Source: an uncultured Spirochaetota bacterium
GTDB taxonomy: Bacteria; Spirochaetota; Spirochaetia; JAFGXN01
Length of the DNA: 56,320 nucleotides
Assembly (NCBI GenBank): GCA_944390005.1
Contig: CALXOJ010000011.1
Span: 1 to 56,320, forward strand
Direction: 5' to 3'
The translations under genes and the position numbers were made by a program. Under the pieces are notes generated by a model. The model was not told the origin of the DNA, did not search any database, and worked only from the letters and a program-made list of their open reading frames with translations. This document shows, piece after piece, positions 1,098 to 15,943 of this stretch (position 1 is the stretch's first letter; each line of letters starts with the position of its first letter).

Positions 1098-1107
1098 CCG
1101 CCTCAGT

Positions 1108-1509
1108 TTATTGCGGAAAGCGGCGGCGGAACAGGTAAAGTGCGGTGCCAACGAGACCGACGCCGGCAAGCGTCAGACCGCTTTGTAAATCGATTGCATT
1201 GAGAACTGATGTCACGATGAGACAGACGCCCATCGCTAAGGCAACGGCCAACGGCGCCATTTCTGCTGCCTGATGCATGCCGCTGCTCTTCGGCGTTCGT
1301 TTGATTTCACATTTCAGCAGAGCGTCGACAGATGTTTCCAGAATCTCCGTCAGCTTTGAAAGCGTCGTAATATCCGGATAGGCTATATTTCGTTCCCATT
1401 TGGAAACAGCTTGTTCGCTCACATTCATTTTTTCTGCCAAATCGGCTTGCGTCATTCCTTTCTCTTTGCGCAAATGGCAAATAACTTCTCCGATGGATTG
1501 TGTTTTCAT
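1108..1509 (-). CDS. XRE-family HTH regulator with C-terminal membrane segments
   Basis: 133 residues. Residues 7-63 form a Cro/CI-type helix-turn-helix (LRKEKGMTQADLAEKMNVS, EQAVSKWERNIAYPD), a DNA-binding fold common in small Firmicute-like regulators. Residues about 82-128 contain two hydrophobic stretches (PLAVALAMGVCLIVTSVL and LTLAGVGLVGTALYLF) that look like membrane helices, so the repressor may be membrane-tethered. The ATG at 1509 has AAGGAG 6 nt upstream and its own promoter. Its targets and signal cannot be read from the sequence. The neighbouring DUF2085 gene lies upstream on the same strand. Confidence 0.85.
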   Translation of the reverse strand: MKTQSIGEVICHLRKEKGMTQADLAEKMNVSEQAVSKWERNIAYPDITTLSKLTEILETSVDALLKCEIKRTPKSSGMHQAAEMAPLAVALAMGVCLIVTSVLNAIDLQSGLTLAGVGLVGTALYLFRRRFPQ

Positions 1510-1526
1510 GATGACTCCTTACGCTT

Positions 1527-1555
1527 ATCATAGAAAATCGGTGCGGAAAAAACAA
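1527..1555 (-). promoter_or_regulatory. Promoter for the XRE regulator
   Basis: On the minus strand TTGTTT (1550-1555), 17 bp, TATGAT (1527-1532). An AAGGAG Shine-Dalgarno follows before the ATG at 1509, so the regulator probably forms its own unit. Confidence 0.55.
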
Positions 1556-1576
1556 GAAACCGTCGGTTGGAATCGC

Positions 1577-2302
1577 TCAACTGTCGGTTGAACCTCGTCG
1601 GTGCCGATAAACGCCGGGGTAGTCAAGAATCAGCTGGACAATTTCGTCGATAATTGCTGTCAGCGCATATCCAAAAAGAAGTCCGGTTGTCATGCGCCAT
1701 GCGTTGTTGCTTTCGTAATCAAACGAAAAATATTGAACAGTTCCGTCGATAATCAGCGGAAGAAAAAGTGCAGCGTATGTCCCGATGTGAAGGAGTCCCT
1801 GTTCCCACCGTTGAAGACCGGGAATTTCAAATGCATCCCAAATGAGAAAATCGAAGGTTCCAAGAAAGTATCCGATAGTCATTCCGTGACAGCGGGCGCA
1901 CAGCGGAAAAAGACGCCCGTTTGAGGCGGTAAAAGTTCGTTGAGGAAGTTGATGGCATTGCCGTGAAAAAAATTCGTAAACACCTTGATTGGCGGCAGAG
2001 AGCGGGTTGCCGAAAGGCGCCGCGTTAACAGTCAGCATGAGCGGAAAAGTGACTCCCATGGTGACGGTTTTGGAGAATCCGTAAAGACCGTCTTTAACGC
2101 GGTTGTCAATCGGAATATAAGTTGCGCTATCCGAATTCGGAGCCGATTCTTCGACAGCGGTTTCTGTAAAAGGGTTCTCGGTTATCGACAACGGCGTCGG
2201 CTGCGTTTGGGCAAACAACGCGGTTGAAAGCGACAGTGCGCCAAAAACGGCGAGTTTACTGCAAATTCGGGTGGCCCAATCGGGCTTCATATTCAGCTTC
2301 AA
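1577..2302 (-). CDS. DUF2085 integral membrane protein
   Basis: 241 residues. The central motif CHQLPQRTF...LFPLCARCHG, with paired Cys/His residues inside hydrophobic segments, is diagnostic of DUF2085, a family of small membrane proteins of unknown role. Several membrane helices follow (GMTIGYFLG, YAALFLPLIIDG, MTTGLLFGYALTAI). The start is a TTG at 2302 preceded by GGGGA with 6-nt spacing; an ATG lies four codons inside (2290). Either start overlaps the end of trmH, so the two are translationally coupled at the distal end of the long minus-strand cluster. The Cys pairs suggest metal or redox chemistry, but no reaction is known. Confidence 0.8.
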   Translation of the reverse strand: MKLNMKPDWATRICSKLAVFGALSLSTALFAQTQPTPLSITENPFTETAVEESAPNSDSATYIPIDNRVKDGLYGFSKTVTMGVTFPLMLTVNAAPFGNPLSAANQGVYEFFSRQCHQLPQRTFTASNGRLFPLCARCHGMTIGYFLGTFDFLIWDAFEIPGLQRWEQGLLHIGTYAALFLPLIIDGTVQYFSFDYESNNAWRMTTGLLFGYALTAIIDEIVQLILDYPGVYRHRRGSTDS

Positions 2303-2939
2303 TTTTATCCCCTTGTTTGATGCAGCGACGGATCCATCGGTAACGCAATTGCGCCAGCTCTTCGGCGGAGAGTCGCCAGTCGATGTCCGAGGCCCGCAAT
2401 CGCTTCGTTAAATCGTGAAGAATCAGTGCGGCGGAAACAGAGACATTAAACGATTCGGTAAATCCGTACATGGGAATTGTAATGAACTCATCTGCAAGAT
2501 TTTTGATTTCCTCCCCTGTGCCGTCGGTTTCGTTTCCCATGGCGACGGCCACTTTTCCCGCAGAGAGATTCAATTCGGTGAACGGTTTAGCGTCTGCAGT
2601 CGGCATAGCGGCGACGATGCGGTAACCGGCGGCTTTTAACGCGGCAGCGGCCTGAGCGGCGGGTTGATTGGTTTTTCGGTGAATGTCGACCCAGAGGGAA
2701 GCGCCTTTGGCGACGTCACTGTTCAGCCGTCCCTGCGTCGCTGTTCCGATTTGGTATAAGTCCTGAATACCGAGACATTCGCATGTGCGGGTAACGGCGC
2801 TGAAGTTTTGTGTATAAAAAATGTTTTCCAAAACGACAGTCACATAACGGGTGCGGTCGGCAGAAACGCGCATAATTTTCTCTAACCGTTGAGGTGTTAG
2901 ATGGCGGGACAGCAGTTCGATTTTTTGTTCTATCTCCAT
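2256..2939 (-). CDS. trmH: SpoU-family tRNA/rRNA 2'-O-methyltransferase, TrmH-like
   Basis: 227 residues with all three SpoU/SPOUT motifs: motif 1 NFSAVTRTCECLG (about 43-56), motif 2 KVAVAMGNETDGTG (about 127-141) and motif 3 IPMYGFTESFNVSVSAALI (about 153-172). It would transfer a methyl group from S-adenosylmethionine to a ribose 2'-OH, most likely Gm18 of tRNA. The C-terminal extension (ELAQLRYRWIRRCIKQGD) matches the TrmH subgroup. The ATG starts 1 nt after the antiporter stop, so it is coupled to that gene. The exact RNA target is inferred from family resemblance. Confidence 0.85.
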   Translation of the reverse strand: MEIEQKIELLSRHLTPQRLEKIMRVSADRTRYVTVVLENIFYTQNFSAVTRTCECLGIQDLYQIGTATQGRLNSDVAKGASLWVDIHRKTNQPAAQAAAALKAAGYRIVAAMPTADAKPFTELNLSAGKVAVAMGNETDGTGEEIKNLADEFITIPMYGFTESFNVSVSAALILHDLTKRLRASDIDWRLSAEELAQLRYRWIRRCIKQGDKIEAEYEARLGHPNLQ

Positions 2940-2940
2940 T

Positions 2941-4452
2941 TCAGTTTTGCTCCGAGCCGCTGAGCGCGGGAGCGTCCATATCGGCGTGTTTGATATTGCT
3001 GAAGTAGTTTGTCAGCTCCTGTTCGCGGTTGCGCGGCGCCAAAATGAAAAGCGTGTCTTCTTTGCGCAGAACGGTGCCGCCCCGCGGCGGAATCATTTTG
3101 TTTTTACGAATGATAACGGTGATAAGCATATCTTGCTCCAGCGGCAGTTCGGAAATTTTCTTTCCTTCCAAATCGCTTGCCTCATCGAGCTGGACCTCAA
3201 ACATATCGTATTCGGTTTCCTTCATTGTCAGCAGTTCGACTGAGTAAAACGACTGCGGTTTCGGCGGAATCATCAGCTTCAGTGCTTTTCCGACGGATGA
3301 AAGCGTAGTTCCCTGCAAAAGGCATGAAACGGCGACGACAAAAAAGACGATGTTAAAAATAGCGGCTGTTTCATTGAAGTATGGCGAATCGGGGTTTAGG
3401 TAGAGACTCGGATAAGTTGCCAAAACGATGGGAACCGCCCCTTTCACTCCTCCCCACGTGATCATGGTGCGTTCTTTCCAATTAAATTTGAAGAAAGCGG
3501 TGCAAATCCAAACCGTCAGCGGCCGTACAATGAAAATCAAAGCGGCAGCGATGATGAGTCCTTCTTTCCAAATGGTTGTCATTTGCGACGGAAAAACCAG
3601 AATTCCCAATAAAAGGAAGACGATAGTGTTTGCCAGAGTCGACATTCCGTCGATCATGAAGCTGAATCCTCGCTTGAAAATGAAGTTGCTGTTGCCCATC
3701 CAGTAACCGGCAAAGAAAACCGCCAACATAGCGCTGACCTTCGTTTCGATTCCGACGCCGTAGATAAGCAGAACAACAGCGGCGCTGAGAACATAGTAGT
3801 ATCCTTTATTGTCGCTGTTCAATTTACGGAAAAGAAAAATGCCGACTTGCGCCATGATGTAACCGAGAAGAATGCCGCCGCCGAATTGCCAAATCAGTTC
3901 GGCAGTGAACAGCGCGGGGTTGCCGGTACCGCCGTTCATGATGTTGATCATCAGCAACGTCAGCAAAATTGCCATCGGATCGTTGGCAGCCGATTCGATT
4001 TGAAGCGTGGAAGCGACTTTTTCCCGAACAGGGCGCTGTTTTAGAATCGCATTGACCGCCGCCGCATCGGTGGAGGAGATAATCGATCCAATCAGCAGTG
4101 CCGTTTTAAAATCAATACCAAGTAAAAAGGAAATCAGCACCCCGAGTCCGAGAGCTGTCAGCACAATGCCGACTGTCGCCAGTGAAAGAGACGGCCCGAA
4201 ATATTTTTTCAATGCGCTTCGTTTGGTACCGAATCCGCTCTCAAAGAGAATGAATGCGAGCGCAAGGTTCGCGATGTTTCCCGCCAGCGTTTTGTCTTCG
4301 ACCGTTGCGCCGAAATCAATGAGGTTCAATCCGTCGCTGCCGACAGCCATTCCGAGTGCTAAAAAAAGCAGCAGTACGGGAACGCCCAATTTCCCTGTCA
4401 GTTTTGTTGAAAAAGTACCCGCCAACAGTAACACAGCTAGGATTAAAATCAT
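2941..4452 (-). CDS. CPA1-type K+(Na+)/H+ antiporter with C-terminal TrkA-C (RCK) domain
   Basis: 503 residues, inner membrane. About twelve hydrophobic helices make up residues 1-385, typical of NhaP/CvrA-type exchangers, with SSTDAAAVNAILKQRP (about 126-141) carrying the conserved acidic ion-binding region and GVKGAVPIVLA (about 333-343) in a later helix. Residues about 405-485 (FEVQLDEASDLEGKKISELP, VLRKEDTLFIL) form a TrkA-C/RCK ligand-binding domain that usually senses nucleotides. It would exchange K+ or Na+ for H+ and help with pH or ion balance. A GGAG-type site precedes the ATG; a 62-bp gap separates it from the sensor gene upstream. Confidence 0.88.
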   Translation of the reverse strand: MILILAVLLLAGTFSTKLTGKLGVPVLLLFLALGMAVGSDGLNLIDFGATVEDKTLAGNIANLALAFILFESGFGTKRSALKKYFGPSLSLATVGIVLTALGLGVLISFLLGIDFKTALLIGSIISSTDAAAVNAILKQRPVREKVASTLQIESAANDPMAILLTLLMINIMNGGTGNPALFTAELIWQFGGGILLGYIMAQVGIFLFRKLNSDNKGYYYVLSAAVVLLIYGVGIETKVSAMLAVFFAGYWMGNSNFIFKRGFSFMIDGMSTLANTIVFLLLGILVFPSQMTTIWKEGLIIAAALIFIVRPLTVWICTAFFKFNWKERTMITWGGVKGAVPIVLATYPSLYLNPDSPYFNETAAIFNIVFFVVAVSCLLQGTTLSSVGKALKLMIPPKPQSFYSVELLTMKETEYDMFEVQLDEASDLEGKKISELPLEQDMLITVIIRKNKMIPPRGGTVLRKEDTLFILAPRNREQELTNYFSNIKHADMDAPALSGSEQN

Positions 4453-4514
4453 CTTTTCTCCGCCTTAATAAAGAAATCGATCTTTTAAATTTTATTAAAA
4501 TATATCCGTCCGTT

Positions 4515-6266
4515 TTAATTTGCGGCCGGCAAGTCGACATAAAATGCAGCGCCTTTCTTTTTCGGATTCAGAAAACGAATTTGTCCGTAATGAAGAAAGA
4601 CGATTCTTTCCGCCAGACAGAGTCCCATTCCGTCGTGATCGATTTTTGTTGTAAAATACGGTTGAAAAATCTTGTCTTGAATTTCGGGAGCCACGCCTTT
4701 CCCATCATCCTGAATGACAATGCGCCAATAACGGTTTTCGTTCTTGCGAATGCGGTCAATGTCCCAGATGATGCGGCCGTTTTCGGCAATCGCTTCCACG
4801 CTGTTTTTCAACAGCTGCGTAAAAAGGTTGACCAGCATCGATGCGTCGCCGGAAACCAGATATTTGTCGCTTAAGTAATTCATTGAAATTTCAATGTTTT
4901 TTGATTCGGGAATCGAAACACTGCGGACAGCTTCATCGAGACAAGTCCTCAAATCGCAAGGCAAGGGATTTTCGACACTCGGTAAATCAAGCGATTTGTA
5001 AAGCGAATCAATTTTTTCCGAAAAAGCGGAGCATTGAGTTCTGAGATGTTCCAGGCTGCGAATACTGTCGCCGTTATTTTCTTTTTTATTTTTTTCCATT
5101 TGTATGACAGCATCAACGCTCTTCAACAATTCTTCGGCCTTTCCGCTCAAATTGTTTCTGAGAATGAGAGCGAATTCCGACCATGACTGCATTTTTGTGC
5201 TTTCATATTTCTCTTCGTTTTTTCGCTCGACTGTCGACAACATTTTATTGAAACTGTTAATGATTTTATTGAAGTCTCGGTTCTCTTTTTCAATGATGCG
5301 GACGGACAAATCGCCTTCCATAATGCTTTGAGAAGCGTTTTCTATTGCCAAAATCGGTCTTGTGATACTTTCGGAGATGTAAAGAGCCAGTAAAATAATG
5401 ACCAAAAGCAACGGAAATGAAATAATCGCCAAGATCATCGTGAAATAAATGATAATGTTGTGTTTATAAAAATCCAGTTCGATGTAATAAGTATAAAGGT
5501 TGGAAAGCGGTCCGGCGGCATTGATTAAATGATTTGACAATGCGGCAGTCAGAAGCGCCGAGTAGGGAATCCCGTTGTATGAAAACGGTCGATTATACCG
5601 AATCAGAGTTTCGTTTCCTGTGTTGACGCGCGCCAACATCTCCTCTGCCGGAAGAGAAGATCCGCTGTAAAAGAATGTTTCGTCTCCCAATGCGTGAATT
5701 TGAGTGCTGCCCTGATAGATTTGAAGTGCTTTTACCGAGGGATTAGAAAATGAAATCATTCCCCACGCTGCCTCCGGATTGGTAAAGACGGTGCGAAGCT
5801 CGGAAATTAAATAGCCGTTTTCGCAAAAATCCTGAAACTGAAGGACTTCGTTCCGATAAGATTCAAGAATTTGATTGCTGCTTTCTTGCAAAACAGGAAT
5901 GGTTTCGTCCGGCAGCCAAGTATTTGCCGTTTTTTGGATGAAGATGAGCGTCAGACCGGTTTGCGGCAGAATAACAAGAATAATCAGAATCACAAAACCG
6001 AAAACAATTTTCGCTTTATACCGCTGTCCCGAGTTGCCTCGTTTTGCATCCGCGTATAACTGGACAATTTTTCCGGCAATGATTCCGATAAATGTCAGCG
6101 GAATCAGAATCGAAAACAAAACCAACGCCGGAGCAATTTTTTGGGCATAGTCCAACCCGGAAAGCAATCGGGCGACCAGCATATAAATCAAAATAATGAA
6201 AAAAAGGTAACTAACAGAGAGTGTGATTAAACTGAGTTTTGAAGATCCTTTAATTCGTTCGCTCAT
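4515..6266 (-). CDS. NtrY-like membrane sensor kinase lacking the phospho-acceptor histidine
   Basis: 583 residues. Three N-terminal membrane helices (about 13-115), an extracytoplasmic sensor region, another helix at about 278-300, a HAMP linker (ITRPILAIENASQSIMEGDLS) and a C-terminal HATPase domain with N box (LLKNSVEAIAENG), G1 (DDGKGVAPE), F box (FQPYFTTK) and GMGLCLA. Where NtrY-type kinases have W-x-x-x-A-R-R-I-A-H-E-I-K-N-P, this protein has WSEFALILRNNLSGK: no histidine. It can probably bind ATP but not autophosphorylate in the usual way. Its start overlaps the ptsH stop by 4 nt, placing it with HPr and downstream of rpoN. No response regulator is in the window. Confidence 0.8.
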   Translation of the reverse strand: MSERIKGSSKLSLITLSVSYLFFIILIYMLVARLLSGLDYAQKIAPALVLFSILIPLTFIGIIAGKIVQLYADAKRGNSGQRYKAKIVFGFVILIILVILPQTGLTLIFIQKTANTWLPDETIPVLQESSNQILESYRNEVLQFQDFCENGYLISELRTVFTNPEAAWGMISFSNPSVKALQIYQGSTQIHALGDETFFYSGSSLPAEEMLARVNTGNETLIRYNRPFSYNGIPYSALLTAALSNHLINAAGPLSNLYTYYIELDFYKHNIIIYFTMILAIISFPLLLVIILLALYISESITRPILAIENASQSIMEGDLSVRIIEKENRDFNKIINSFNKMLSTVERKNEEKYESTKMQSWSEFALILRNNLSGKAEELLKSVDAVIQMEKNKKENNGDSIRSLEHLRTQCSAFSEKIDSLYKSLDLPSVENPLPCDLRTCLDEAVRSVSIPESKNIEISMNYLSDKYLVSGDASMLVNLFTQLLKNSVEAIAENGRIIWDIDRIRKNENRYWRIVIQDDGKGVAPEIQDKIFQPYFTTKIDHDGMGLCLAERIVFLHYGQIRFLNPKKKGAAFYVDLPAAN

Positions 6267-6529
6267 TCGTTCTCGAATTTCGAATCAAAGAGAGCAGCCA
6301 TGGCGTCGGCAGCCTCTTTTTCGTCTTCTCCTTCCGTAATGATGCGAAGCGGTGTTTTGTAAGTTGCCCCCAACGTTAAAATAATCATAATCGATCGCGC
6401 GTTGATTTGCAGATCGTCTTTTTTTAAGAAAATTTGAGATTTGAAACGATTGGCCGTGTCGACAATCATTGTTGCGGGGCGCGCATGTATTCCGGCCCGG
6501 TTTAAAACAATCACATCCCGAACTTCCAT
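6263..6529 (-). CDS. ptsH: HPr phosphocarrier protein
   Basis: 88 residues, the normal HPr length. The active-site motif GIHARPA places His15 in the canonical position, and NARSIMIILTLGA gives the regulatory Ser46 that HPr kinase phosphorylates. Both phosphorylation sites are therefore intact. In organisms without sugar-transporting PTS complexes, such HPr works mainly in regulation; no EI or EII gene is seen here. AAGGAG precedes the ATG. It lies 10 nt after hprK and overlaps the sensor gene by 4 nt, a layout that suggests a shared signalling role. Confidence 0.95.
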   Translation of the reverse strand: MEVRDVIVLNRAGIHARPATMIVDTANRFKSQIFLKKDDLQINARSIMIILTLGATYKTPLRIITEGEDEKEAADAMAALFDSKFENE

Positions 6530-6539
6530 TTTCCGCTCC

Positions 6540-7523
6540 TTAAAATTGATCTTCGTTTTTGAAATATAAATCGCGCGTGCGCTTGTTTTCCAGCCATTCC
6601 AACATATTTTCGTTAAATTCCCTAGCCGCGTTGTATCCCAACTTTTTCAGCCGTTCGTTCATGGCGGCGATTTCCACCAAAACGGGAATATTTCTCCCTG
6701 ATTTAACCGGCATTTCGATAAATGGCGTATCGATGCCTAAATACGTTTTTGTAACATCCTGAGCTCCGAATCGATCGTAACTTTTTTGCGAATTCCACTC
6801 TTCCATGTGAATAATCAGCTGAATCTGCTTCTTTTCGCGGATTGCGCCGACACCGAAGAGGTGGTTAATATTTAAAATTCCCAATCCTCGGACTTCCAAA
6901 TGGTGGCGAGTGACTTCATTTGCTCCGGAACCCATCAAAATTTCGCCGCTGAGGGCAAATAGTTTTACTGCATCATCGGCAATCAGCCGATGTCCGCGGG
7001 AAATCAGCTCCAACGCTGTTTCGCTTTTCCCAATTCCGCTGTCGCCTTGCAGCAGAACTCCGATTCCGTAAACTTCTACCAATGTTGCATGGATGATTTC
7101 CGACGGAGCAAAATAATCACCCAATACGGTTACGATTCGCTGTGAAAAATCGGAAGAGTTCAGTTCGGTTTTTAAAATCGGAATATTGTGTTTTTCGCCG
7201 ATTTCGACAATATCTGTTTCGCTGTCGTATTCCGAAGTGATGATACAGCACGGAATCGGAAATTCGAAAAGTTTTTCAAGCGCCGTCCTTCTTTCATCCC
7301 GGCTCATTTTTTTTAGATAAGCCAATTCACCGCGCCCGAAAATTTGAATACGGTCGTGCGCAAACTGATCAAAAAATCCACTGAGAGCGAGCCCCGGTCG
7401 GTTGACATAAGAGGTTCCGATTTCCCTTGCAAGACCTTTCCGACCCGCTGCGACAGACAGCTTTAAATCTTTATTGGCTTTGCAGTTCAAACCCAATAAA
7501 TCGAGCACGGTGAGAACGTTCAT
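6540..7523 (-). CDS. hprK: HPr kinase/phosphorylase
   Basis: 327 residues. Residues 1-130 are the N-terminal HprK domain and 131-310 the catalytic domain. It contains the P-loop GDSGIGKSE (160-168) and the HprK signature EVRGLGILNINHLFGVGAI. The enzyme phosphorylates or dephosphorylates Ser46 of HPr in response to energy state; its partner is the adjacent ptsH. No Shine-Dalgarno precedes the ATG. Instead a promoter-like pair inside the end of hpf (TTGCCG, 17 bp, TAGAAT) lies 5 nt before the ATG, so besides read-through from hpf a leaderless internal transcript is possible. Confidence 0.95.
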   Translation of the reverse strand: MNVLTVLDLLGLNCKANKDLKLSVAAGRKGLAREIGTSYVNRPGLALSGFFDQFAHDRIQIFGRGELAYLKKMSRDERRTALEKLFEFPIPCCIITSEYDSETDIVEIGEKHNIPILKTELNSSDFSQRIVTVLGDYFAPSEIIHATLVEVYGIGVLLQGDSGIGKSETALELISRGHRLIADDAVKLFALSGEILMGSGANEVTRHHLEVRGLGILNINHLFGVGAIREKKQIQLIIHMEEWNSQKSYDRFGAQDVTKTYLGIDTPFIEMPVKSGRNIPVLVEIAAMNERLKKLGYNAAREFNENMLEWLENKRTRDLYFKNEDQF

Positions 7524-7528
7524 AATTT

Positions 7529-7557
7529 ATTCTATAATATTTATTTGCGTTCGGCAA
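7529..7557 (-). promoter_or_regulatory. Internal promoter giving a predicted leaderless hprK mRNA
   Basis: Minus strand TTGCCG (7552-7557), 17 bp, TAGAAT (7529-7534), then five bases (AAATT) and the hprK ATG. It overlaps the hpf stop region. The expected +1 falls on or beside the start codon. Confidence 0.5.
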
Positions 7558-7834
7558 TCTTTTCTTTTTCTTTTTTTATTTTTTTTACTGTCTTGTCGAC
7601 TGCTTGGTTGACGGCTTTGTAAAGTTTTGACGAACCGCACGCAATGTGCGACGTGCCGCCCCATTTTGTATGGGTGTCGATCTTGACGGTGTAACCGTTT
7701 TTTTCATGAAGCACCAACATTTTAAAATCGACAATGTCTTCTTTTAAAACTTCCAGTTTTTGGAGTTTTTTGTTAATGTACTCTTGAGCTGAGTTGCTTA
7801 ATTCATAATGAATTCCCTGAATGAAACGTTCCAT
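7541..7834 (-). CDS. hpf: Short-form ribosome hibernation promoting factor / RaiA-like
   Basis: 97 residues, matching the short HPF/YfiA class that lacks the C-terminal dimerisation domain. MERFIQGIHYELSNSAQEYINKKLQKL and the basic C-terminal helix (KAVNQAVDKTVKKIKKEKEK; residues about 72-92) are characteristic of the beta-alpha-beta-beta-beta-alpha fold that sits in the 30S decoding channel and silences ribosomes in stationary phase. GGAGG 6 nt before the ATG supports this start, which lies 32 nt inside the end of rpoN. The rpoN-hpf pairing is a classic arrangement and links hibernation to the sigma-54 operon. Confidence 0.92.
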   Translation of the reverse strand: MERFIQGIHYELSNSAQEYINKKLQKLEVLKEDIVDFKMLVLHEKNGYTVKIDTHTKWGGTSHIACGSSKLYKAVNQAVDKTVKKIKKEKEKIAERK

Positions 7835-9185
7835 TTTTTCCTCCTGAACGGTTTATTTGAGAGCGGTATTTGCATACGGTTCGTTTGCAGATACCGATTC
7901 CCTGCATTTTTAAAAGGCGGCTCATCCGCGCATCGCTCATTTCTCCGTATTCTTTCCGCAAAGCGGTCATAGCGGCTTCGATTTCCTCACGGCTGAAACT
8001 GCCGTTTCCGCTTCGGTCAAGCAGTGCGGCTGTCGGCACTGTAAACGAACGAATGACTTCATCTCCGTTTGCTGCTTTCAATTTAATTTCAACTACCTTG
8101 TTTTTAAGCAGTCGGGAGAGTTTAGGCGGGTCAGTGCCGATAGCGGCGGCAATTTGCGATTGAGTGAGGCGGCTCTTGGCGGCAGTTTTGCCGGTTAAGT
8201 ATTCGATCTGGGTTTCGACAAGTTTGTATACAGCCGCTTTTAAAAGCCTGCACCGCTCTTCGGCAGTGTAAAGCACCGTTTCGGCCAGACTTCGTTCGCC
8301 CGCCGAAGAGCGGCCGTCTTCCGGTTCAGTCAGCTTCAAACCGCTTAAGATACGGTCAGCCGGTAAGGAAACAGAAATGATATTTTTGCCGGCGATGACA
8401 ACCGTCGCATCGGGAACGGCGTCGACCGGTTGCGGTTGACTGCTTCCGGGCGACGCCGGAACCGGCAGGCGCGAAACCGATTCGACCGTCTCTTCTCCGA
8501 ATTTCTCTTTGAGAATCCGTGGAATTTCGTTCCAATCCGTTCCGCTTTCGGTCAGTGCAAACAATTCAGCGTAAAAAATCTTAGCGGTCGGAGGATAATC
8601 GGGGTCATCTGCGGCGATGACGGCGGCGGCTTCAAAACGGTTTTTGGTTGCCGTTCCCGGGGGATCGAAGCGGCGGATCACCGTAATCACTTTGTCGATC
8701 ATCGCCGTGTTTTGAGGCTGCCGCTTTTTCTCGCTTTCCGGAAACGTTTCACCGGTCTGCGGGTCTCGGATCCAGAAGCCGTTTTCATCCAGTCCGCTGA
8801 TCAACAATTCCCCGATCTCTGTCTCTTCTCTCGACATCCGTTCCCATCGTAATTGCTCGGTTAAAGACGATTTCAGAGTCGAAGTGGTGGGAGCGGTTGC
8901 TTCCAAAATATCAGTGACGGACGACGGTTCGGAGAAGAAGGTTCGCCGCGAAGTGTTTCGAGTTGAAAGAGTCGGAAAAAACAGCCGATCGACGGAAGGA
9001 GCATCGGAAGAGTATGAAAGAAAATGATTTTCTTCGGTGAAACGGAGCAGAAATTCTTCAAAGTTGCCGGACGGCGCGGAAAAAAGGCGTCCGCGTAATT
9101 TTAAAAGCGCTGCCTGTTTGGGAATTTGTTTTAAGGCGGCTGTTTGCCGTTGGGTGAGTTTCATCGTCGAAGCTGCAGGTGCCAA
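7803..9185 (-). CDS. rpoN: RNA polymerase sigma-54 factor
   Basis: 460 residues. Region I, which contacts activators, begins KLTQRQTAALKQIPKQAALL. The core-binding domain includes LLISGLDENGFW. A weak helix-turn-helix (LTQSQIAAAIGTDPPKLSRLL) and the RpoN box, here CKRTVCKYR instead of the usual ARRTVAKYR, follow near the C-terminus. The TTG at 9185 has GGAG at good spacing, while the ATG at 9164 has none, so I prefer the TTG. It directs transcription from -24/-12 promoters with NtrC-type activators. No activator is encoded here; the NtrY-like sensor three genes on may belong to such a circuit. Confidence 0.9.
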   Translation of the reverse strand: MAPAASTMKLTQRQTAALKQIPKQAALLKLRGRLFSAPSGNFEEFLLRFTEENHFLSYSSDAPSVDRLFFPTLSTRNTSRRTFFSEPSSVTDILEATAPTTSTLKSSLTEQLRWERMSREETEIGELLISGLDENGFWIRDPQTGETFPESEKKRQPQNTAMIDKVITVIRRFDPPGTATKNRFEAAAVIAADDPDYPPTAKIFYAELFALTESGTDWNEIPRILKEKFGEETVESVSRLPVPASPGSSQPQPVDAVPDATVVIAGKNIISVSLPADRILSGLKLTEPEDGRSSAGERSLAETVLYTAEERCRLLKAAVYKLVETQIEYLTGKTAAKSRLTQSQIAAAIGTDPPKLSRLLKNKVVEIKLKAANGDEVIRSFTVPTAALLDRSGNGSFSREEIEAAMTALRKEYGEMSDARMSRLLKMQGIGICKRTVCKYRSQINRSGGKNGTFHSGNSL

Positions 9186-9243
9186 AAGACTCTCCGTTTA
9201 TTTCATTATCACATGCGCAGACAGATAAGTCAAATCTTTTTTG

Positions 9244-9972
9244 TCACATGCGGAAGTTTTCGCCGAGGTAAATTTTGCGCGCCATTTCGTTTTTGAGAAT
9301 GTGGGTTTTGTCGCCGTCAACCAAAATATCGCCTAAGTGGATGATGTAGGCGCGGTCGGTGATTTCCAGCGTATCGCGGACATTGTGGTCTGTAATCAGA
9401 ATACCGATTCCTTTTTGCGCTAACTCTGAAATAATACCTTTAATTTCCGAAACGGCAATTGGGTCGATTCCGGCAAACGGTTCATCGAGCAGCAGGAATT
9501 TCGGTTCTATTGCCAGAGAGCGGGCAATTTCCGTTCGCCGTCGTTCGCCGCCCGAAAGAGTGTACGCTTTCTGTGTGCGCAATCGGGTAATTTTCAGCTC
9601 TTCAAGAAGGAACTCCAGTTTTTCTTTTTTTTCGGCTTTATTCAAATCGTTGCGTGTTTCCAAAATCGCCCAGATGTTCTGCTCTACGGTTAACTGCTTA
9701 AAAACCGACGCTTCCTGCGGCAGATAAGCGATACCGCGCCGTGCCCGCTTGTACATCGGTTCGTTGGAGATGTTGGTGCTGTTGAGGTAAATGTGTCCCG
9801 ATGTCGGTTTGATGAATCCGACAATCATGTAAAAAATCGTCGTTTTGCCTGCACCGTTCGGTCCCAGCAGACCGACGACTTCGCCTTCCTTCATGCCAAA
9901 CGAAACTTTTTGAACGGCGACTTTTTTTCCGAAAGTTTTTCTCAGATTTTCGACACCTAAAACCGATTTCAT
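9244..9972 (-). CDS. lptB: LPS-type export ABC transporter ATPase LptB
   Basis: 242 residues, the usual length. Walker A GPNGAGKT (37-44), signature LSGGERRRTEIARSLA, Walker B FLLLDEPFAGID, and the switch histidine in ITDHNV. LptB drives lipopolysaccharide-like glycolipid extraction from the inner membrane together with LptF/G, which are not in the window. The ATG overlaps the lptA stop in an ATGA, so it is translationally coupled. If the host is a Treponema-like spirochaete without classical LPS, the cargo could be another lipid; that is inference. The chromosomal link lptC-A-B-rpoN-hpf is a well-known conserved order. Confidence 0.93.
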   Translation of the reverse strand: MKSVLGVENLRKTFGKKVAVQKVSFGMKEGEVVGLLGPNGAGKTTIFYMIVGFIKPTSGHIYLNSTNISNEPMYKRARRGIAYLPQEASVFKQLTVEQNIWAILETRNDLNKAEKKEKLEFLLEELKITRLRTQKAYTLSGGERRRTEIARSLAIEPKFLLLDEPFAGIDPIAVSEIKGIISELAQKGIGILITDHNVRDTLEITDRAYIIHLGDILVDGDKTHILKNEMARKIYLGENFRM

Positions 9973-10628
9973 GCCGACTCTTCCTGTTGAATGGTGCCGC
10001 GAACGCGTCCTTCCAGACGGATTTCGTCTGTATCGATATTGATAATGATTCTGGTGGCGCGGTATTCGTCTCCGTCTTTGATAACGTAGGGCGAGCTGGA
10101 AAGTTCGAGCTCTTTTGTTTTGCGATTGTAGACGGCTGCTTCGCTTCGGCAGACAATGTTGTCTTTGATAATCCGGACACCGATTTGAATAATGGTGGTT
10201 TCCGATTCCTGCGAATCTTCAAGAAAATTGCCTTTAACGACAAGATTGTTTTTTTTGTCTACCATTTCCGCATATTCTTCAATGCGGCTGATCTTTTTTT
10301 CGCGGTCAAAAAATAAATTTTCGCATTTGAGGTAGATGCCTTGTTTTGAGTCGCGGACGCGCACTTGACCGGAGCAAAGAGCGTAACGGAAGTTTTCTCC
10401 GAACAGTTCGATTCGATTGGCGTTGATCAGCGTCTGCCCTGAAAGAATGCGGGCGTTTCCTTCCAGAACGGTCATCTCTTTTCCTTTACTCAATTCTATC
10501 GAAGTCTTGTCACTGCTGAATTCGAATTTTTCGGCAGACTCTTTTTCTTCTTCTTCATCGGCCGCAAACACCGGAAAAACCAGCATCGCAGCCAGAAGCA
10601 GCAGCGATAAAAAACGGATTTTACTCAT
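9969..10628 (-). CDS. lptA: LptA-like periplasmic OstA-domain protein
   Basis: 219 residues from the ATG at 10628; this start gives a clean signal peptide (MSKIRFLSLLLLAAMLVF followed by PVFAA). The mature part has repeated beta-strand units with the OstA/LptA look: KTSIELSKGKEMTVLEGNA, NANRIELFG, YRATRIIINIDTDEIRLEG. LptA forms the periplasmic bridge between the inner and outer membrane Lpt complexes. The start overlaps the lptC stop by 8 nt and the stop overlaps lptB by 4 nt. A longer upstream extension of the frame runs antiparallel to no signal and lies inside lptC, so I rejected it. Confidence 0.85.
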   Translation of the reverse strand: MSKIRFLSLLLLAAMLVFPVFAADEEEEKESAEKFEFSSDKTSIELSKGKEMTVLEGNARILSGQTLINANRIELFGENFRYALCSGQVRVRDSKQGIYLKCENLFFDREKKISRIEEYAEMVDKKNNLVVKGNFLEDSQESETTIIQIGVRIIKDNIVCRSEAAVYNRKTKELELSSSPYVIKDGDEYRATRIIINIDTDEIRLEGRVRGTIQQEESA

Positions 10629-11244
10629 CGGCTGTCTCCGTGGCGGAATCTGTCGAATCAATCGAATCAGGCGCCGCTTCGTCCGTTTCTTCTTCGGAAG
10701 ATTCGGAGATGTACTCGCCGCGGACGCCGTTTCTGAATTCCGCTTTATTCTGCTTCGAATCGACGTAAAAGCCTTTGCCTGCAAAAAAAGTTCCATCTTC
10801 TTTTGAGATACGAATTTCGTCCGTAATGTTTCCCGAAAGAACGCGGTCTTTGTTTTGCCAGAGCAGGTAATCGCCTTCGATTAAAACTTCTTCTTCTTTC
10901 GAATCGATCTGAATGTTGTCAGTGATTTCCACATTGCCGGTTGCATTGAAACGAACGGCTTTTCCCGCTTCGCCCGTTGCCGACAGTTCGCCTTTGTTGT
11001 TGAATTGTTCGAATTTCATCGAGTGAATGACGATTTCGTTCCGTTCGTCCGTATCGAACATTTCGGCATCTGCCGATTGAGCTCTGTAACGAACTTTTCC
11101 GCGCACGATGTCATTATATTCCATGTCGTAAATGCGGACTGCGGGAATGGAATCATACAGCGCATTGAGTTCTTCGTCTGACATCGTTCTGATTTTACAC
11201 GAGAAAAACGATAGAAAAATCATCAAAATCGCCGAAATTCTCAC
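10621..11244 (-). CDS. lptC: LptC-like lipoprotein, first gene of the lpt-rpoN cluster
   Basis: 207 residues starting at a GTG. The N-terminus MRISAILMIFLSFFSC has a hydrophobic segment and a lipobox-like FFSC, so it may be a lipoprotein rather than the single-pass protein of E. coli. The central part (RVRYRAQSADAEMF-type strands, FEQFNNKGELSATGEAGKAV, EVLIEGDYLLWQNKDRVLSG; about 50-150) resembles the LptC/YrbK beta-jellyroll. The C-terminus is very acidic (ESSEEETDEAAPD). There is no Shine-Dalgarno; the GTG lies 5 nt after a TATACT, so the mRNA is probably leaderless. Assignment rests on fold-like pattern and gene order. Confidence 0.75.
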   Translation of the reverse strand: MRISAILMIFLSFFSCKIRTMSDEELNALYDSIPAVRIYDMEYNDIVRGKVRYRAQSADAEMFDTDERNEIVIHSMKFEQFNNKGELSATGEAGKAVRFNATGNVEITDNIQIDSKEEEVLIEGDYLLWQNKDRVLSGNITDEIRISKEDGTFFAGKGFYVDSKQNKAEFRNGVRGEYISESSEEETDEAAPDSIDSTDSATETADE

Positions 11245-11249
11245 AATTC

Positions 11250-11278
11250 AGTATAACAAATCCCGCCGCTTGCGGCAA
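11250..11278 (-). promoter_or_regulatory. Promoter of the lptC-rpoN-hprK cluster (leaderless)
   Basis: Minus strand TTGCCG (11273-11278), 17 bp, TATACT (11250-11255), then GAATT and the GTG start of lptC. The predicted +1 falls at or within 1-2 nt of the GTG. Confidence 0.65.
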
Positions 11279-11306
11279 CATTCTTTCCGAAAATCTTTTT
11301 TGCGTG

Positions 11307-11335
11307 TTGCCTATTTGATTTTTATCGTTTAAAAT
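11307..11335 (+). promoter_or_regulatory. Promoter of the rbgA operon (leaderless)
   Basis: TTGCCT (11307-11312), 17 bp, TAAAAT (11330-11335), then exactly 6 nt to the GTG at 11342. It is arranged divergently with the lptC promoter, and both are predicted to give GTG-initiated leaderless messages. Confidence 0.65.
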
Positions 11336-11341
11336 AAAACG

Positions 11342-12205
11342 GTGAATATCAATTGGTTTCCCGGGCATATGAAAAAGACCGGCGATTTGCTGAAGACGAA
11401 CATCGACCGCGTCGATTTGACTGTCGAAGTGTTGGATGCCCGCATTCCGTTGTCGGGACTGAATCCGTTTGTTGAAGAAATTGTCTCTCGGAAACCGGTT
11501 TTATATGTTTTGAATAAGGCTGACTTAGCTGACGAGAGTGAGACAAGGCGGTGGCTCTCTTACTTTCAAAAAAGGAAAGATGCAGCGGCGGTGGTTTGCT
11601 GCGCTGTCCGTCCGCAGGAGGCGAAAAAAGTGACAGCCGCCTGTTTCGCGCTGTGCCCGGAGGCCAAAACCGGCCGCCGCGGAGTGCGGGTGCTGATTAC
11701 CGGCATTCCGAACGCGGGAAAGTCGACATTAATCAACACGCTGTGCGGAGCTGCCAAAGCAAAAACCGGCGACCGACCGGCGGTGACCAAAACGCTGCAG
11801 CGGATTTTGACGCCGGGCGGTTTGGATTTGTATGACACGCCGGGTATTTTATGGCATAAATTCGAAAATCGGGATGCGGCATACCGATTGGCGGCGACCG
11901 GAGCGGTTCGGGATGAGGTTTTGAATTTGCCGGACATTGCGTTATATACGATTGAGTTTTTGCAAAACCGCTACCGCGATCCGTTTGCGCAGCGGTTTGC
12001 GTTGGGCGGCGCTGTCGGCGACGCGCCTTTGGCGATATTAGATAAAATCGCCTTGAAACGAGGGTGTACGGCCAAAGGCGGCGTCGTTGACCGGGAAAAG
12101 GCGGCGTCGGTTTTTTTACGCGAAGTCAGATCCGGAAAAGTCGGGCGGCTGACCTTCGACCGCGTTGAAGAAGTGCCGACGTTTGAGGCGGCTGATGGCG
12201 TTTGA
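11342..12205 (+). CDS. rbgA: Circularly permuted ribosome-biogenesis GTPase RbgA/YlqF
   Basis: 287 residues. The G motifs appear in permuted order: G4 LNKAD (about 57-61), then G1 GIPNAGKSTL (about 121-130), then G3 DTPG (about 162-165). The start NINWFPGHMKKT is the family hallmark. RbgA helps late assembly of the 50S subunit. The GTG has no Shine-Dalgarno and sits 6 nt after a -10 hexamer, so initiation is probably leaderless. It overlaps the glycosyltransferase gene by 11 nt and heads a four-gene plus-strand unit. Confidence 0.93.
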   Translation: MNINWFPGHMKKTGDLLKTNIDRVDLTVEVLDARIPLSGLNPFVEEIVSRKPVLYVLNKADLADESETRRWLSYFQKRKDAAAVVCCAVRPQEAKKVTAACFALCPEAKTGRRGVRVLITGIPNAGKSTLINTLCGAAKAKTGDRPAVTKTLQRILTPGGLDLYDTPGILWHKFENRDAAYRLAATGAVRDEVLNLPDIALYTIEFLQNRYRDPFAQRFALGGAVGDAPLAILDKIALKRGCTAKGGVVDREKAASVFLREVRSGKVGRLTFDRVEEVPTFEAADGV

Positions 12206-13028
12206 GGTTTCGGCTGTCATTCCGCATTTCGAACGGGAAGAATTGTTGGCGCAGACGCTGGAGTCGATTGTCAATCAAAGTGAACCGCCTGCGGAAATCA
12301 TCGTTGTCGACGACGGAAGCCGGCGGCCGCCCGAGTCGGTCTGCCGCCGCTTCGGCGCACAGCTGCTTTCAATCCCTCACACCGGCAAACCCGGCGCAGT
12401 TCGTAACCGCGGCGTTGAGGCGGCCGTTTCGCAGTGGATTGCGTTTGCGGATTCCGATGACTTGTGGCTTCCTGAAAAACTGAAAACGCAGCGGCTGCGT
12501 TTGGAACGCGATGGCGAAACAGCATTGTGTCACACTCGGGAAATTTGGCTGCGAAATGGGGTGACGGTCAGCCAAAAAAAGCAAAAACACCGCCGTGAAG
12601 GCGATCTTTTTTATGATTCGCTGAAAAAGTGCATTATCGGACCGTCGACTGTTTTGCTGCGCCGTTCGGTCTTCAAAGAGCTTGGCGGTTTCGACGAAAC
12701 ATTGGAAATTGCCGAAGATTACGAGTTTTGGCTGCGCTGGACCGATCGTTTTCCGGTTGTTTACTGCGATGAACCGTTGATTGTCAAACGTGCCGGCAAT
12801 TGGCCCCAGCTGTCAACCCGTTACGGGCAAATCGAAATTTTCCGTCTGCGGGCGCTTCTGCTTTTATTAAAAAAGCGGATGTTGTCGGAGGAGCATTGCT
12901 TTCAGGCAGCGGAGGAGGCGGCGCGCAAAGCGGAGGTCTATGCGCTCGGTTGCCGGAAACGGGGGCGAACAGACGAAGCTCTCGAATGGGAGAGAATTGC
13001 CGGAAATTTGAAGAGGAGCGACGGATGA
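12195..13028 (+). CDS. Family 2 glycosyltransferase
   Basis: 277 residues. GT-A fold motifs: SAVIPHFEREELLAQTLESI (about 5-24), EIIVVDDGSRRP (about 33-44) and ADSDDLWLPEKLK (about 80-92), where the D-x-D holds the metal and nucleotide sugar. A later IIGPSTVLLRRSVFKELGGF and EDYEFWLRW are the usual acceptor-side signature. It would transfer a sugar from an activated donor to a surface glycan or lipid; the acceptor is unknown. The ATG at 12195 is inside the end of rbgA and the stop overlaps the next ATG (ATGA), so the genes are tightly coupled. Confidence 0.9.
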   Translation: MAFEVSAVIPHFEREELLAQTLESIVNQSEPPAEIIVVDDGSRRPPESVCRRFGAQLLSIPHTGKPGAVRNRGVEAAVSQWIAFADSDDLWLPEKLKTQRLRLERDGETALCHTREIWLRNGVTVSQKKQKHRREGDLFYDSLKKCIIGPSTVLLRRSVFKELGGFDETLEIAEDYEFWLRWTDRFPVVYCDEPLIVKRAGNWPQLSTRYGQIEIFRLRALLLLLKKRMLSEEHCFQAAEEAARKAEVYALGCRKRGRTDEALEWERIAGNLKRSDG

Positions 13029-14332
13029 GAAAAAAAGGATGGTTTGTGTTTTTTTGCCTTTTGCTGCTTTCGTTCGAATTGGTGCGCCCGGCGGAAATTG
13101 TTTGGTTCGGCGTTTATTCCGACACGGAATCTCTGACCGATTTACAGCGCTCCGCTCTCGAAAAAACGATCCTGCAAAATATCGAGGATCGGGGTGAAGT
13201 GACGCTTTTGCATTCGACCGAAAGCGTTGAAATGCCGGCTGACTTAATCGACGTCAAAAGAAAATTTTATGAATTTCTGAGAAACCGGGAGAGTCGATAC
13301 GGAGTATTTGCCTGGCCGGAAACGGACGGCAAAAAGTCTGTGCTTAGAATTTTCATTTTGGACGCCGAAAAAGAGAGCGAAGCGGAAGGACGCGGTGATT
13401 ACCGTTCCCGATATGATATTTTTGCGGCTGTTCTTCCTGCCGTCGAAGATTTGGTTTCAAAGTGGAAAACTCCTGCCGAAGAACCGAAAGAGACGGTTGA
13501 ATATGTCGAACGCAATTGGATCAAAATTACCGGCGGTTTCTTTAAAATGGGGGAAGATTACCACAAAGCCGACAATCGTCCTCAGCATGAGGTTCAGATT
13601 TCCGATTTTTGGATGGATCCGTATGAAGTAACGGTGCTTGAGTTTCGAAAATTCGTCGAAGACACCGGTTACTATATTGCTCAAGGTGCGTTTATCCACA
13701 ATGAACAAATGCAGATGGGGTTTGAACGTTCTTTGAATTTTGAAAATCCGGGCTACGCCGTTTCTGACCGACAGCCGGTTTCCTGTGTTTCATGGATTGA
13801 TGCACTTCACTACTGCAACTGGAAGAGCCTTCAACGCGGACTGACGCCGTGTTACGAGATTGACGAAAAAGGCGTTCGTTGGAATCGTAATGCGGACGGT
13901 TACCGTTTACCAACCGAAGCCGAATGGGAATACGCCGCTTCCGGGGGGAAGCCGCAGCGGACGCGAATTTTTGCCGGTTCGGACAATATCGCTTCAGTAG
14001 CGGTTCACGCCGCCAACAGCAACGGTGCGCCTGCCGTTGTCGGCAGTTTAGAGCCGAACGAATTGGGACTCTATGACATGAGCGGGAACGTTTTTGAATG
14101 GTGCTGGGATATTTACGGCGAAAATTATTACGGCGAATCGTCTTGGGCTGCGGATCCGACCGGTCCCAGCGAAGGTGCTTACCGCGTTTATCGCGGCGGT
14201 TCGTGGTTCAGTCCGCCGATGATTTGTCTTACATTTAATCGTCTTTCCAACAATCCGCAGCTGCGTTCTAATCTGGTCGGATTCCGATTGGCCCGCAGCG
14301 GTCCCGACTACGGATTCGACGTTTCACGCTGA
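13025..14332 (+). CDS. Exported SUMF1/formylglycine-generating-enzyme-like protein
   Basis: 435 residues from the ATG that overlaps the previous stop. A signal peptide (KKGWFVFFCLLLLSFELV) is followed by about 130 residues of unassigned sequence. The SUMF1 domain then runs from WIKITGGFFKMGEDYHKADN to GGSWFSPPMICLTFNR...GFRLAR. True formylglycine-generating enzymes use two cysteines near this end; here only one (PPMIC) is in place, so it is more likely a C-type-lectin-like binding or surface protein than an oxidase. Many bacterial SUMF1 proteins are of this sort. No sulfatase is nearby. Confidence 0.85.
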   Translation: MRKKGWFVFFCLLLLSFELVRPAEIVWFGVYSDTESLTDLQRSALEKTILQNIEDRGEVTLLHSTESVEMPADLIDVKRKFYEFLRNRESRYGVFAWPETDGKKSVLRIFILDAEKESEAEGRGDYRSRYDIFAAVLPAVEDLVSKWKTPAEEPKETVEYVERNWIKITGGFFKMGEDYHKADNRPQHEVQISDFWMDPYEVTVLEFRKFVEDTGYYIAQGAFIHNEQMQMGFERSLNFENPGYAVSDRQPVSCVSWIDALHYCNWKSLQRGLTPCYEIDEKGVRWNRNADGYRLPTEAEWEYAASGGKPQRTRIFAGSDNIASVAVHAANSNGAPAVVGSLEPNELGLYDMSGNVFEWCWDIYGENYYGESSWAADPTGPSEGAYRVYRGGSWFSPPMICLTFNRLSNNPQLRSNLVGFRLARSGPDYGFDVSR

Positions 14333-14407
14333 CTGCAATTTTAAAGAAAGAAAACTCAATAAAGGAAGATTTCAAAAATGCCGATAAAAACGCAGAGGGG
14401 CATAAAA

Positions 14408-15943
14408 ATGAAAAAAACTTTATTGATGTTGATTTTTTCCGGATTGAGTATCTCCGTTTTTGCCGATTACTACATTTGTTACGGCTCGTTCCGTAATCAG
14501 GACAATGCGTTTGCGGAGAGCGCAGCATTACAGGCCGCCGGAATCGAATCGGCAGTAGTCGAAATGAAAACCGACGGTGCCGTTCTTTATCGAGTGATTC
14601 ATCCAAAAGGTTATGCGGACAGCGATTCCGCAAAATGGAAAATAAAGTACATTGTTGCCGAACTGGAGTCTCCGTATCCGACACAAGAGTCGTTCTGGGT
14701 GTTTGAATCGGTCGATGCACCGAAAACGGTTGTGCAAACCGATGCAGCGGTCAAGGAAGCAGCAGAGATGAACGATGATTTGTCGGTTGATGCAGCGAGT
14801 GGTGCCGAATTGACCGATGAATCGGCAGTCGAAGAGACGAATGAAGTCATTGCGGAAGAGACAGCTGACGGAGAAATTTCCGAAAATTCAGATGAAGCGG
14901 TTGCTGCGGATTTAGAATCTTCGAATGAAAATGTAACGGAGATTTCAAATAACGAGCGGAGCGGCAATTCTTCCGCTGACAGCGAAAAGTCGGAGGAGGA
15001 AATTGCGCAAAGAGTACGAAGAGATGCGTTTGCTGAAAAAGCTTCCGATAAATTTGACGTCGAAGGTGCCGAAGAGGCGGCCGACGGCGAAGTTTCCGAA
15101 GAGCTGACGGTTGAAGAGGACGATGAGACGCTTGCCGAAGAGGCAGCCGACGGCGAAGTTTCCGAAGAGCTGACAGTTGAAGAGGGCGAAGAAGCGCTTG
15201 CCGAAGAGGCGGCTGACGGCGAAGTTTCCGAAGAGCTGACGGTTGAAGAGGGCGATGAAACGTTTGCCGAAGAGGCGGCTGACAGCGAAGTTTCCGAAGA
15301 GCTGACGGTTGAAGAGGGTGATGAAACGCTTGCCGAAGAGGCGGCCGACGGCGAAGTTTCCGAAGAGCTGACGGTTGAGGAGGACGATGAAGCGCTTGCC
15401 GAAGAGGCGGCCGACGGCGAAGTTTCCGAAGAGCTGACGGTTGAGGAGAGCGATGAAACGCTTGTCGAAGAGGCAGCTGACGGCGAAGTTTCCGAAGAGC
15501 TGACGGTTGAGGAGGGTGATGAAACGCTTGCCGAAGAGGCGGCCGACGGCGAAGTTTCCGAAGAGCTGACGGTTGAAGAGGACGATGAAGCGCTTGCCGA
15601 AGAGGGTGGTAAAGCGGCAGTTTCCGAGATTCGATTTACTTTAAAAAATCAATCCGTTTACAAAACTTTGTTTGATTCGCCTGCGACAGTTTACGCCGTC
15701 ATTCCCGAGGAGCTGACAAGAGGAAAAGTGCCGGTTGATTTTACCGTTAATCTTTACCGCGATCGGGAACGGGTCGCTTCGAAAACCGGTGATTTCATTC
15801 CCAATCTCAATAAATTCAGCATCACGGAGACCTTTCCTGAAGCGATGTTTAATGACGTAACGCGGACGTGTGAATACACCATCGAGCTGATTTTTAACGG
15901 TGAAGTGATTGCCGAAAATTCGTATCTTTATTTTATCGACTGA
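14408..15943 (+). CDS. Secreted acidic repeat protein with SPOR-like N-terminus
   Basis: 511 residues. GAGGGG lies 7 nt before the ATG at 14408, which gives the signal peptide KKTLLMLIFSGLSISVFA. Residues 20-90 (YYICYGSFRNQDNAFAESAAL) resemble a SPOR/septal-peptidoglycan-binding module. Then comes a Glu/Asp/Ala-rich stretch with eight tandem copies of a 22-residue unit (EEAADGEVSEELTVEE plus a six-residue variable tail, residues 222-397), and a final about 110-residue domain (EIRFTLKNQSVYKTLF...) that looks beta-rich. The repeats are nearly pure acid and probably form an extended spacer. Role is unknown; location suggests the periplasm or envelope. Confidence 0.8.
   Translation: MKKTLLMLIFSGLSISVFADYYICYGSFRNQDNAFAESAALQAAGIESAVVEMKTDGAVLYRVIHPKGYADSDSAKWKIKYIVAELESPYPTQESFWVFESVDAPKTVVQTDAAVKEAAEMNDDLSVDAASGAELTDESAVEETNEVIAEETADGEISENSDEAVAADLESSNENVTEISNNERSGNSSADSEKSEEEIAQRVRRDAFAEKASDKFDVEGAEEAADGEVSEELTVEEDDETLAEEAADGEVSEELTVEEGEEALAEEAADGEVSEELTVEEGDETFAEEAADSEVSEELTVEEGDETLAEEAADGEVSEELTVEEDDEALAEEAADGEVSEELTVEESDETLVEEAADGEVSEELTVEEGDETLAEEAADGEVSEELTVEEDDEALAEEGGKAAVSEIRFTLKNQSVYKTLFDSPATVYAVIPEELTRGKVPVDFTVNLYRDRERVASKTGDFIPNLNKFSITETFPEAMFNDVTRTCEYTIELIFNGEVIAENSYLYFID
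15071..15598 (+). repeat. Eight tandem copies of a 66-bp coding repeat
   Basis: The unit begins GAAGAGGCGGCCGACGGC and encodes a 22-residue acidic block. Copies differ mainly at the codons for the last six residues (DDETLA, GEEALA, GDETFA, GDETLA, DDEALA, SDETLV, GDETLA, DDEALA), and copy four has Ser for Gly. The high DNA-level identity suggests recent expansion and likely copy-number variation among strains. Confidence 0.95.

Follow-up and report, generated by a model that had tools for sequence, protein, structure and literature searches.

DivL, which controls CckA in Caulobacter, carries a Tyr in place of the phospho-acceptor His of histidine kinases. The available text of one report describes DivL as signalling to its partner by contact (PMC12189002), and that of another describes the ATPase domain of DivL as dispensable and a ChrS variant of Corynebacterium, a frameshift pseudokinase evolved in the laboratory, as likewise having no need of an ATP-binding domain; the disabled ChrS kinase still signals, and ChrS-HrrS heterodimers are reported (PMC9491836). 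RocA of group A Streptococcus, which acts on CovS, is a membrane-bound relative of histidine kinases that works without autophosphorylation and keeps a predicted but dispensable His, H246 (PMC7028121, available text). Within the NtrY family, the available text on PlrS, the NtrY homologue of Bordetella, states that the Asn at H+4 is required for phosphatase activity, and its authors infer that the H521Q variant lacks this activity as well; the same text proposes the DUF4390 protein PlrP as a third NtrYX component in beta- and gamma-proteobacteria and reports a DUF4390 partner for a subset of the NtrYX family, with a distribution described within proteobacteria (PMC13001219).

Here we analysed an NtrY-type sensor gene of a spirochaete, located in a window (the whole stretch of DNA that was analysed) of 56,320 nucleotides; this window corresponds to contig 11 in a genome of 1.95 Mb (G000). 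Like PlrS, the protein combines a membrane sensor, a HAMP domain, a DHp-like hairpin and a CA domain with most of the CA motifs, but in contrast to PlrS and other NtrYs of the NtrYX family it has no acceptor His, no HE..N motif, no NtrX, no gene for a PlrP-like DUF4390 protein and no PAS domain detected by Pfam (PMC13001219, available text). With DivL it shares a DHp-CA fold without a usable His. Since the CA is dispensable in DivL and in the ChrS variant, whereas it is strongly constrained and indeed the most constrained large region in the window NtrY, this analogy is imperfect; in the ChrS variant, moreover, the CA was destroyed during laboratory evolution, whereas here the CA is kept and the acceptor was lost naturally, at the level of a genus (PMC9491836, available text). 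RocA, also a membrane-bound kinase relative, keeps its H246, whereas the window protein lacks the His, the Glu, the Asn and the Pro and stems from the NtrY family (PMC7028121, available text). A search of the open literature found no description of an NtrY without its His.

An NtrY-type sensor without its phospho-acceptor histidine

The open reading frame at 4515..6266 (minus strand, as are all window genes and features described below with coordinates for rpoN to ntrY and the flanking genes) encodes 583 aa comprising a membrane part, HAMP, DHp and ATP-binding domains. We classed its product as an NtrY-type pseudo-histidine kinase on the basis of HAMP and HATPase_c matches without HisKA and of full-length matches to syntenic NtrYs. 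In a first search, which covered G000 and 59 other genomes (58 further relatives being of the same class), near-full-length NtrY matches were found in 34 of the 59, with 93% identity in G001, the only other genome of its genus in the set, and 21-29% identity elsewhere; this full-length homology, together with the conserved neighbourhood, places the protein in the NtrY family. The N-terminal membrane/sensor part (residues 1-298) is encoded at 5373..6266, the HAMP domain (residues 300-346; Pfam PF00672, 28.4 bits) at 5229..5369, the DHp-like helical hairpin (residues 356-425) at 4992..5201 and the ATP-binding domain (HATPase_c, residues 473-582; Pfam PF02518, 55.5 bits) at 4521..4850.

These matches bear out the initial annotation, which had described an NtrY-like membrane sensor with HAMP, whereas its description of the ATP-binding domain as complete holds only in part. 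Most of the motifs are present, with N488, D520/G522/G524, F534, P536, Y537, T539, G546 and G548 retained, but Gln stands at the N484 position and His544 replaces the first Gly of what we take to be the G2 box (the ATP-site box names being our own assignment). Judged by its motifs, the domain is nearly, though not fully, complete, and these two changes mean that its ATP binding may be weak.

The former H-box WSEFALILRNNLSGK (residues 362-376; 5139..5183) aligns without gaps with W.EIAQRLAHEIKNPLTPI of the orthologues. In this alignment the codon AAC at 5154..5156 places Asn371 in the column of the phospho-acceptor His, and N372, G375 and K376 stand at H+1, H+4 and H+5, where the Glu, Asn and Pro are likewise missing; W362 and A366 of the H-box region are retained. 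The NtrY-family H-box (acceptor His, HE..NPLTPI) is absent, as are the Glu at H+1 and the Asn or Thr at H+4 that mark bifunctional HisKA kinases/phosphatases. Pfam gave no HisKA match for the window NtrY at E<=1, and the same search detected HisKA in the NtrY orthologues at loci L032 and L035. The absence of the acceptor His from the H-box, as first noticed, was thereby confirmed, and the same change is present in G001; with both the acceptor and the H+1 acid lost in the two genomes, the protein has, by motif, no catalytic competence, as expected of a pseudo-histidine kinase. A sequencing error was rejected because the second genome carries the same residues, and a local frameshift because the other two frames of the H-box stretch hold no H-box.

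The extent of the change was assessed on columns conserved in at least 90% of 130 other near-full-length NtrYs. This conservation count left out G002 (locus L032), the representative of the sister genus; besides that genus and the window's own, the genome set contains none from this family. The window NtrY keeps 5 of the 24 conserved DHp columns, against 21 of 24 in G002, and no other sequence falls below 83%. Elsewhere it keeps 23 of 32 columns in the ATP-binding region, 10 of 14 in HAMP and 6 of 7 in the sensor. The contrast between the DHp and the CA indicates more than a point loss, with the phosphotransfer face lost and the rest largely kept. In an AF2 model of residues 291-583 (21 sequences), helices are predicted at residues 356-393 and 399-425, forming a hairpin with pLDDT of about 45-77 across the DHp, and the CA is confident, its blocks mostly at pLDDT 80-94. 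The best Foldseek matches of the DHp-CA model in the PDB are histidine kinases, with ZraS first and DivL (4q20) included, so that the kinase fold is, by prediction, retained. A full-length AF2 model from two sequences had a mean pLDDT of 42.7 and was not used.

With the His, the H+1 Glu and the H+4 Asn gone, the protein is expected to lack both autophosphorylation and conventional phosphatase action, which supports the earlier view that the sensor is not a conventional histidine kinase. A phosphatase or a decoy had been suggested in its place, and NtrY homologues are indeed bifunctional, PlrS itself carrying HEIKN (PMC13001219, available text). In the window NtrY, however, Gly375 replaces the H+4 Asn, the H+1 Glu is lost and the locus no longer has an NtrX; a decoy would be without an obvious object, and either role towards a response regulator is scarcely credible.

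Distribution of the histidine and loss of NtrX

With a His-bearing NtrY as the query, a search of 297 genomes of the class gave a match at E<=1e-30 in 160, and we read the H-box in 143 genomes drawn from these matches and from the loci of the first search. The acceptor His was present in 141 of the 143 Spirochaetia NtrYs read; the remaining two, the window genome and G001, have Asn. The initial annotation had reasoned that orthologues with an aligned His would point to a sequencing or local substitution event. Such orthologues are clearly the rule, but the conclusion attached to them does not stand, because the change is present in a second genome too and strong purifying selection acts on the gene. 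The assemblies are estimated to be 97-98% complete, and 'absent' here means absent from such assemblies.

Upstream of the window ntrY the gene order is lptC-lptA-lptB-rpoN-hpf-hprK-ptsH, where lptC, lptA and lptB are names that we presume for these genes; the annotation of the window genes agrees with the earlier statement that ntrY follows rpoN-hpf-hprK. The conserved cluster gene lptB (9244..9972; ABC_tran) holds the same place in orthologous loci, and hpf, for the hibernation-promoting factor (7541..7834), scored just above the TIGR00741 cut-off. In 18 neighbourhoods that were fetched, ptsH is usually followed by an ORF of about 180-250 aa and then by ntrY, ntrX (REC-AAA-HTH) and two further genes, presumably lexA-like and holA-like. 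In the window, the place held by ntrX in orthologues is occupied by a gene for a Na+(K+)/H+ antiporter with TrkA_C (2941..4452; Pfam), which starts 62 bp after ntrY and stands in the same order in G001. Simple deletion of everything behind ntrY is not the whole story, since a match to the holA-like neighbour is found elsewhere in both G000 and G001. The available text on PlrS describes trkAH behind homologues of ntrYX in some proteobacteria (PMC13001219); the antiporter with TrkA_C directly behind the window ntrY is perhaps a coincidence.

Among the 141 His-bearing genomes, NtrX directly follows ntrY and aligns over at least 300 of 454 residues in 132. A shorter NtrX match (150-275 residues) was found in six, several of these stretches stopping at a contig edge; in two, the contig edge was reached with no NtrX match; and in one, G002, ntrY is followed by a receiver match only. 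The G002 regulator (L032:7465-8052) is a protein of 196 aa with REC and HTH_8 (a Fis-type HTH) that has lost the AAA+ and adjoins a His-bearing NtrY. No NtrX was found at the locus in G000 or G001, although the DNA directly downstream is present, and no other match in these two genomes looks like NtrX, the best being a separate NtrC-like pair at G000:C3. The window NtrY is therefore without the adjoining cognate NtrX (REC-AAA-HTH) that defines NtrYX.

The ORF between ptsH and ntrY lies on the same strand in 12 of the 18 loci, was not resolved in three (L033, L038 and L045) and is absent in three (G001, G002 and G058). Since G058 keeps both the His and NtrX, loss of that gene alone does not cause loss of the His. 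The one such ORF run through Pfam, that of L035 (7156-7791), scored above the DUF4390 cut-off; in a genome search, DUF4390 was above the cut-off in G012, below it in G053 and absent from all three family members in the set (G000, G001 and G002). Reported beside NtrYX in proteobacteria, the DUF4390 gene thus also adjoins ntrY in a spirochaete.

Purifying selection on the retained protein

The ntrY genes of the window and G001 align over 583 codons with no indel or stop and 93.3% identity. The 46 nonsynonymous and 208 synonymous differences give a dN of 0.035, a dS of 0.925 and a dN/dS of 0.038, a dS near 0.9 from a simple counting method being approximate. By region, the ratio is 0.038 for the membrane/sensor part, 0.062 for the linker and DHp and 0.024 for the CA region (residues 434-583), and residues 299-347, around HAMP, carry no nonsynonymous difference. 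In the same pair of genomes, the ratio is 0.036 for hprK and has a median of 0.075 over 41 window genes. Selection thus maintains the gene, as seen in these two genomes, and a decaying pseudogene was rejected on the ratio of 0.038 and the intact frame.

A functionless relic awaiting deletion would be in keeping with the loss of the partner, with the strongly diverged RpoN and with the tree of 34 NtrYs, in which the branch to the G000/G001 pair is 3.2 changes per site long, the median tip being 0.8. Such a relic is nevertheless very improbable, given an uninterrupted frame whose ratio is about that of hprK and below the 41-gene median. In this tree, which has an arbitrary root, the pair is not visibly grouped with G002; as the long branch and the arbitrary root do not settle its place, orthology is based on synteny and full-length homology. 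A long branch with strong constraint after it suggests that the function changed rather than that the gene decayed. Purifying selection means that the window NtrY matters to the cell; it does not tell how the protein acts.

Proximity to HPr and HprK

The ptsH gene (6263..6529) encodes HPr with His15 and Ser46 kept, and its stop overlaps the ntrY start by 4 nt (ATGA), in agreement with the overlap reported initially; hprK, for HPr kinase/phosphorylase, lies at 6540..7523 (TIGR00679, 360 bits). HPr has genus-specific changes beside Ser46, K45R and G49I, where all 17 other genomes compared read KSIMG. HprK has genus-specific changes in a loop, from PVKPGRN to PVKSGRN, and in its signature, from GHHMEIRGLG to RHHLEVRGLG, with Walker A kept; like those of HPr, they lie close to the Ser46 contact. 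EI is present in the window genome.

The initial annotation had placed the sensor as a possible regulator of HPr or HprK. In such a reading, a membrane sensor would contact one of these proteins via its ATP-binding domain and set the Ser46 switch, and the ATGA overlap, the presence of EI and the changes in both HPr and HprK within the same genus are all consistent with it. The rpoN-hpf-hprK-ptsH-ntrY order, however, is ancestral and common to His-bearing NtrYs that stand beside NtrX, so that the adjacency gives little specific support and only the 4-nt overlap is local; the changes in HPr and HprK may also be unrelated, and the contact is hypothetical. We therefore consider this reading unlikely. 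It is quite improbable that, after the loss of NtrX, NtrY became a membrane-bound, ATP-dependent regulator of HPr/HprK, its CA re-aimed at the proteins encoded upstream and HPr and HprK changing along with it; if true, this would join an extracytoplasmic signal directly to catabolite control without a phosphorelay.

Divergence of RpoN and the remaining kinases

The rpoN gene for sigma54 (7803..9185) is strongly diverged: its CBD and DBD scored 47.3 and 46.2 bits, TIGR02395 gave 111 bits against a cut-off of 277, and Pfam found no match for the AID. Mean RpoN identity is 51.6% among the other genomes, 32.5% between G002 and these genomes and 24.0% between the window and these genomes, and the corresponding values for NtrY are 38.8, 30.7 and 23.8%. 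HprK shows a small drop (60.2, 58.8 and 52.1%), and LptB and HPr are without such a drop. Between G000 and G001, rpoN has a dN/dS of 0.194, though a GAFTGA activator persists in the genome.

The window genome has five HisKA matches and twelve or thirteen receiver domains, and one of the HisKA matches, with HEIKN, lies beside the sigma54 activator; the two form the NtrB/NtrC-like pair at G000:C3, with HEIKN and GAFTGA intact. A second sigma54-activator-type AAA match was seen at G000:C10:26810-27520, within a frame of 359 aa; no receiver match was obtained at that place. Loss of all sigma54 activation in this genome was rejected, since the NtrB/NtrC-like pair and the second AAA-type match persist.

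These remaining kinases also bear on whether the window NtrY may still be a phosphate donor, its CA phosphorylating, within a mixed dimer, the DHp His of a different kinase, with its own acceptor dispensable. No large domain is more constrained than the CA (dN/dS 0.024), most ATP-site residues are retained, and the five HisKA matches, among them the one with HEIKN beside the sigma54 activator, offer candidate recipients; but 19 of the 24 conserved DHp columns are changed, so that the protein is less likely to pair with a canonical DHp, and the G2 box is altered. A donor role is thus unlikely, albeit worth keeping in view.

A probable repurposed pseudo-histidine kinase

Across the relatives the losses form a stepwise series, and the loss of NtrX, the AAA+-less NtrX of the sister genus, the absence of DUF4390 and the divergence of RpoN together point to a stepwise dismantling of the sigma54-NtrYX module. 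The ancestor would have been an NtrY kinase encoded in the lptCAB-rpoN-hpf-hprK-ptsH-ntrYX cluster of spirochaetes. In the order that we infer, the DUF4390 gene would have been lost in this Spirochaetia family, and NtrX would have been left without its AAA+ ATPase, the state seen in the sister genus; NtrX would then have gone from the locus, and the DHp helix of NtrY would have lost its whole phosphotransfer face, including the His, Glu, Asn and Pro, with the sensor, HAMP and ATP-binding domains being retained and brought under the present strong purifying selection.

Because the His and the partner are lost yet the gene is kept intact by selection, the protein probably now serves another signalling function, and the conservation of the sensor, HAMP and ATP-binding domains favours contact signalling to a partner. 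By analogy with DivL and RocA, the window NtrY is probably a repurposed pseudo-histidine kinase in which the sensor and the ATP-binding domain are coupled to another protein by contact. It would presumably be a dimer that does not phosphorylate itself on the usual His; the sensor and the state of putatively bound ATP would alter its shape, and this change would reach a partner protein directly, in the way that DivL acts on the kinase CckA and RocA on the kinase CovS.

The relatives offer a natural record of how a two-component system is dismantled, from accessory gene to output ATPase, regulator and the acceptor of the kinase, with the kinase itself kept under selection. If confirmed, a repurposed pseudo-histidine kinase of this kind would mean that an NtrY can serve a selectable function through its sensor and ATP-binding halves without phosphotransfer, and the small genome, with the HisKA matches and receiver domains counted above, would be a defined case in which to seek that function.

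Other observations in the window

Nucleotide identity to G001 steps at about 15067-15627, from 91.5% (1106-15539) to 98.4% (15133-43013). The step coincides with apparent 66-bp tandem repeats, and suggests a recombination boundary. Further along the window, a 734-aa ORF at 46061-48265 has a dN/dS of 0.77 between G000 and G001 (100 nonsynonymous and 43 synonymous differences), far above its neighbours.
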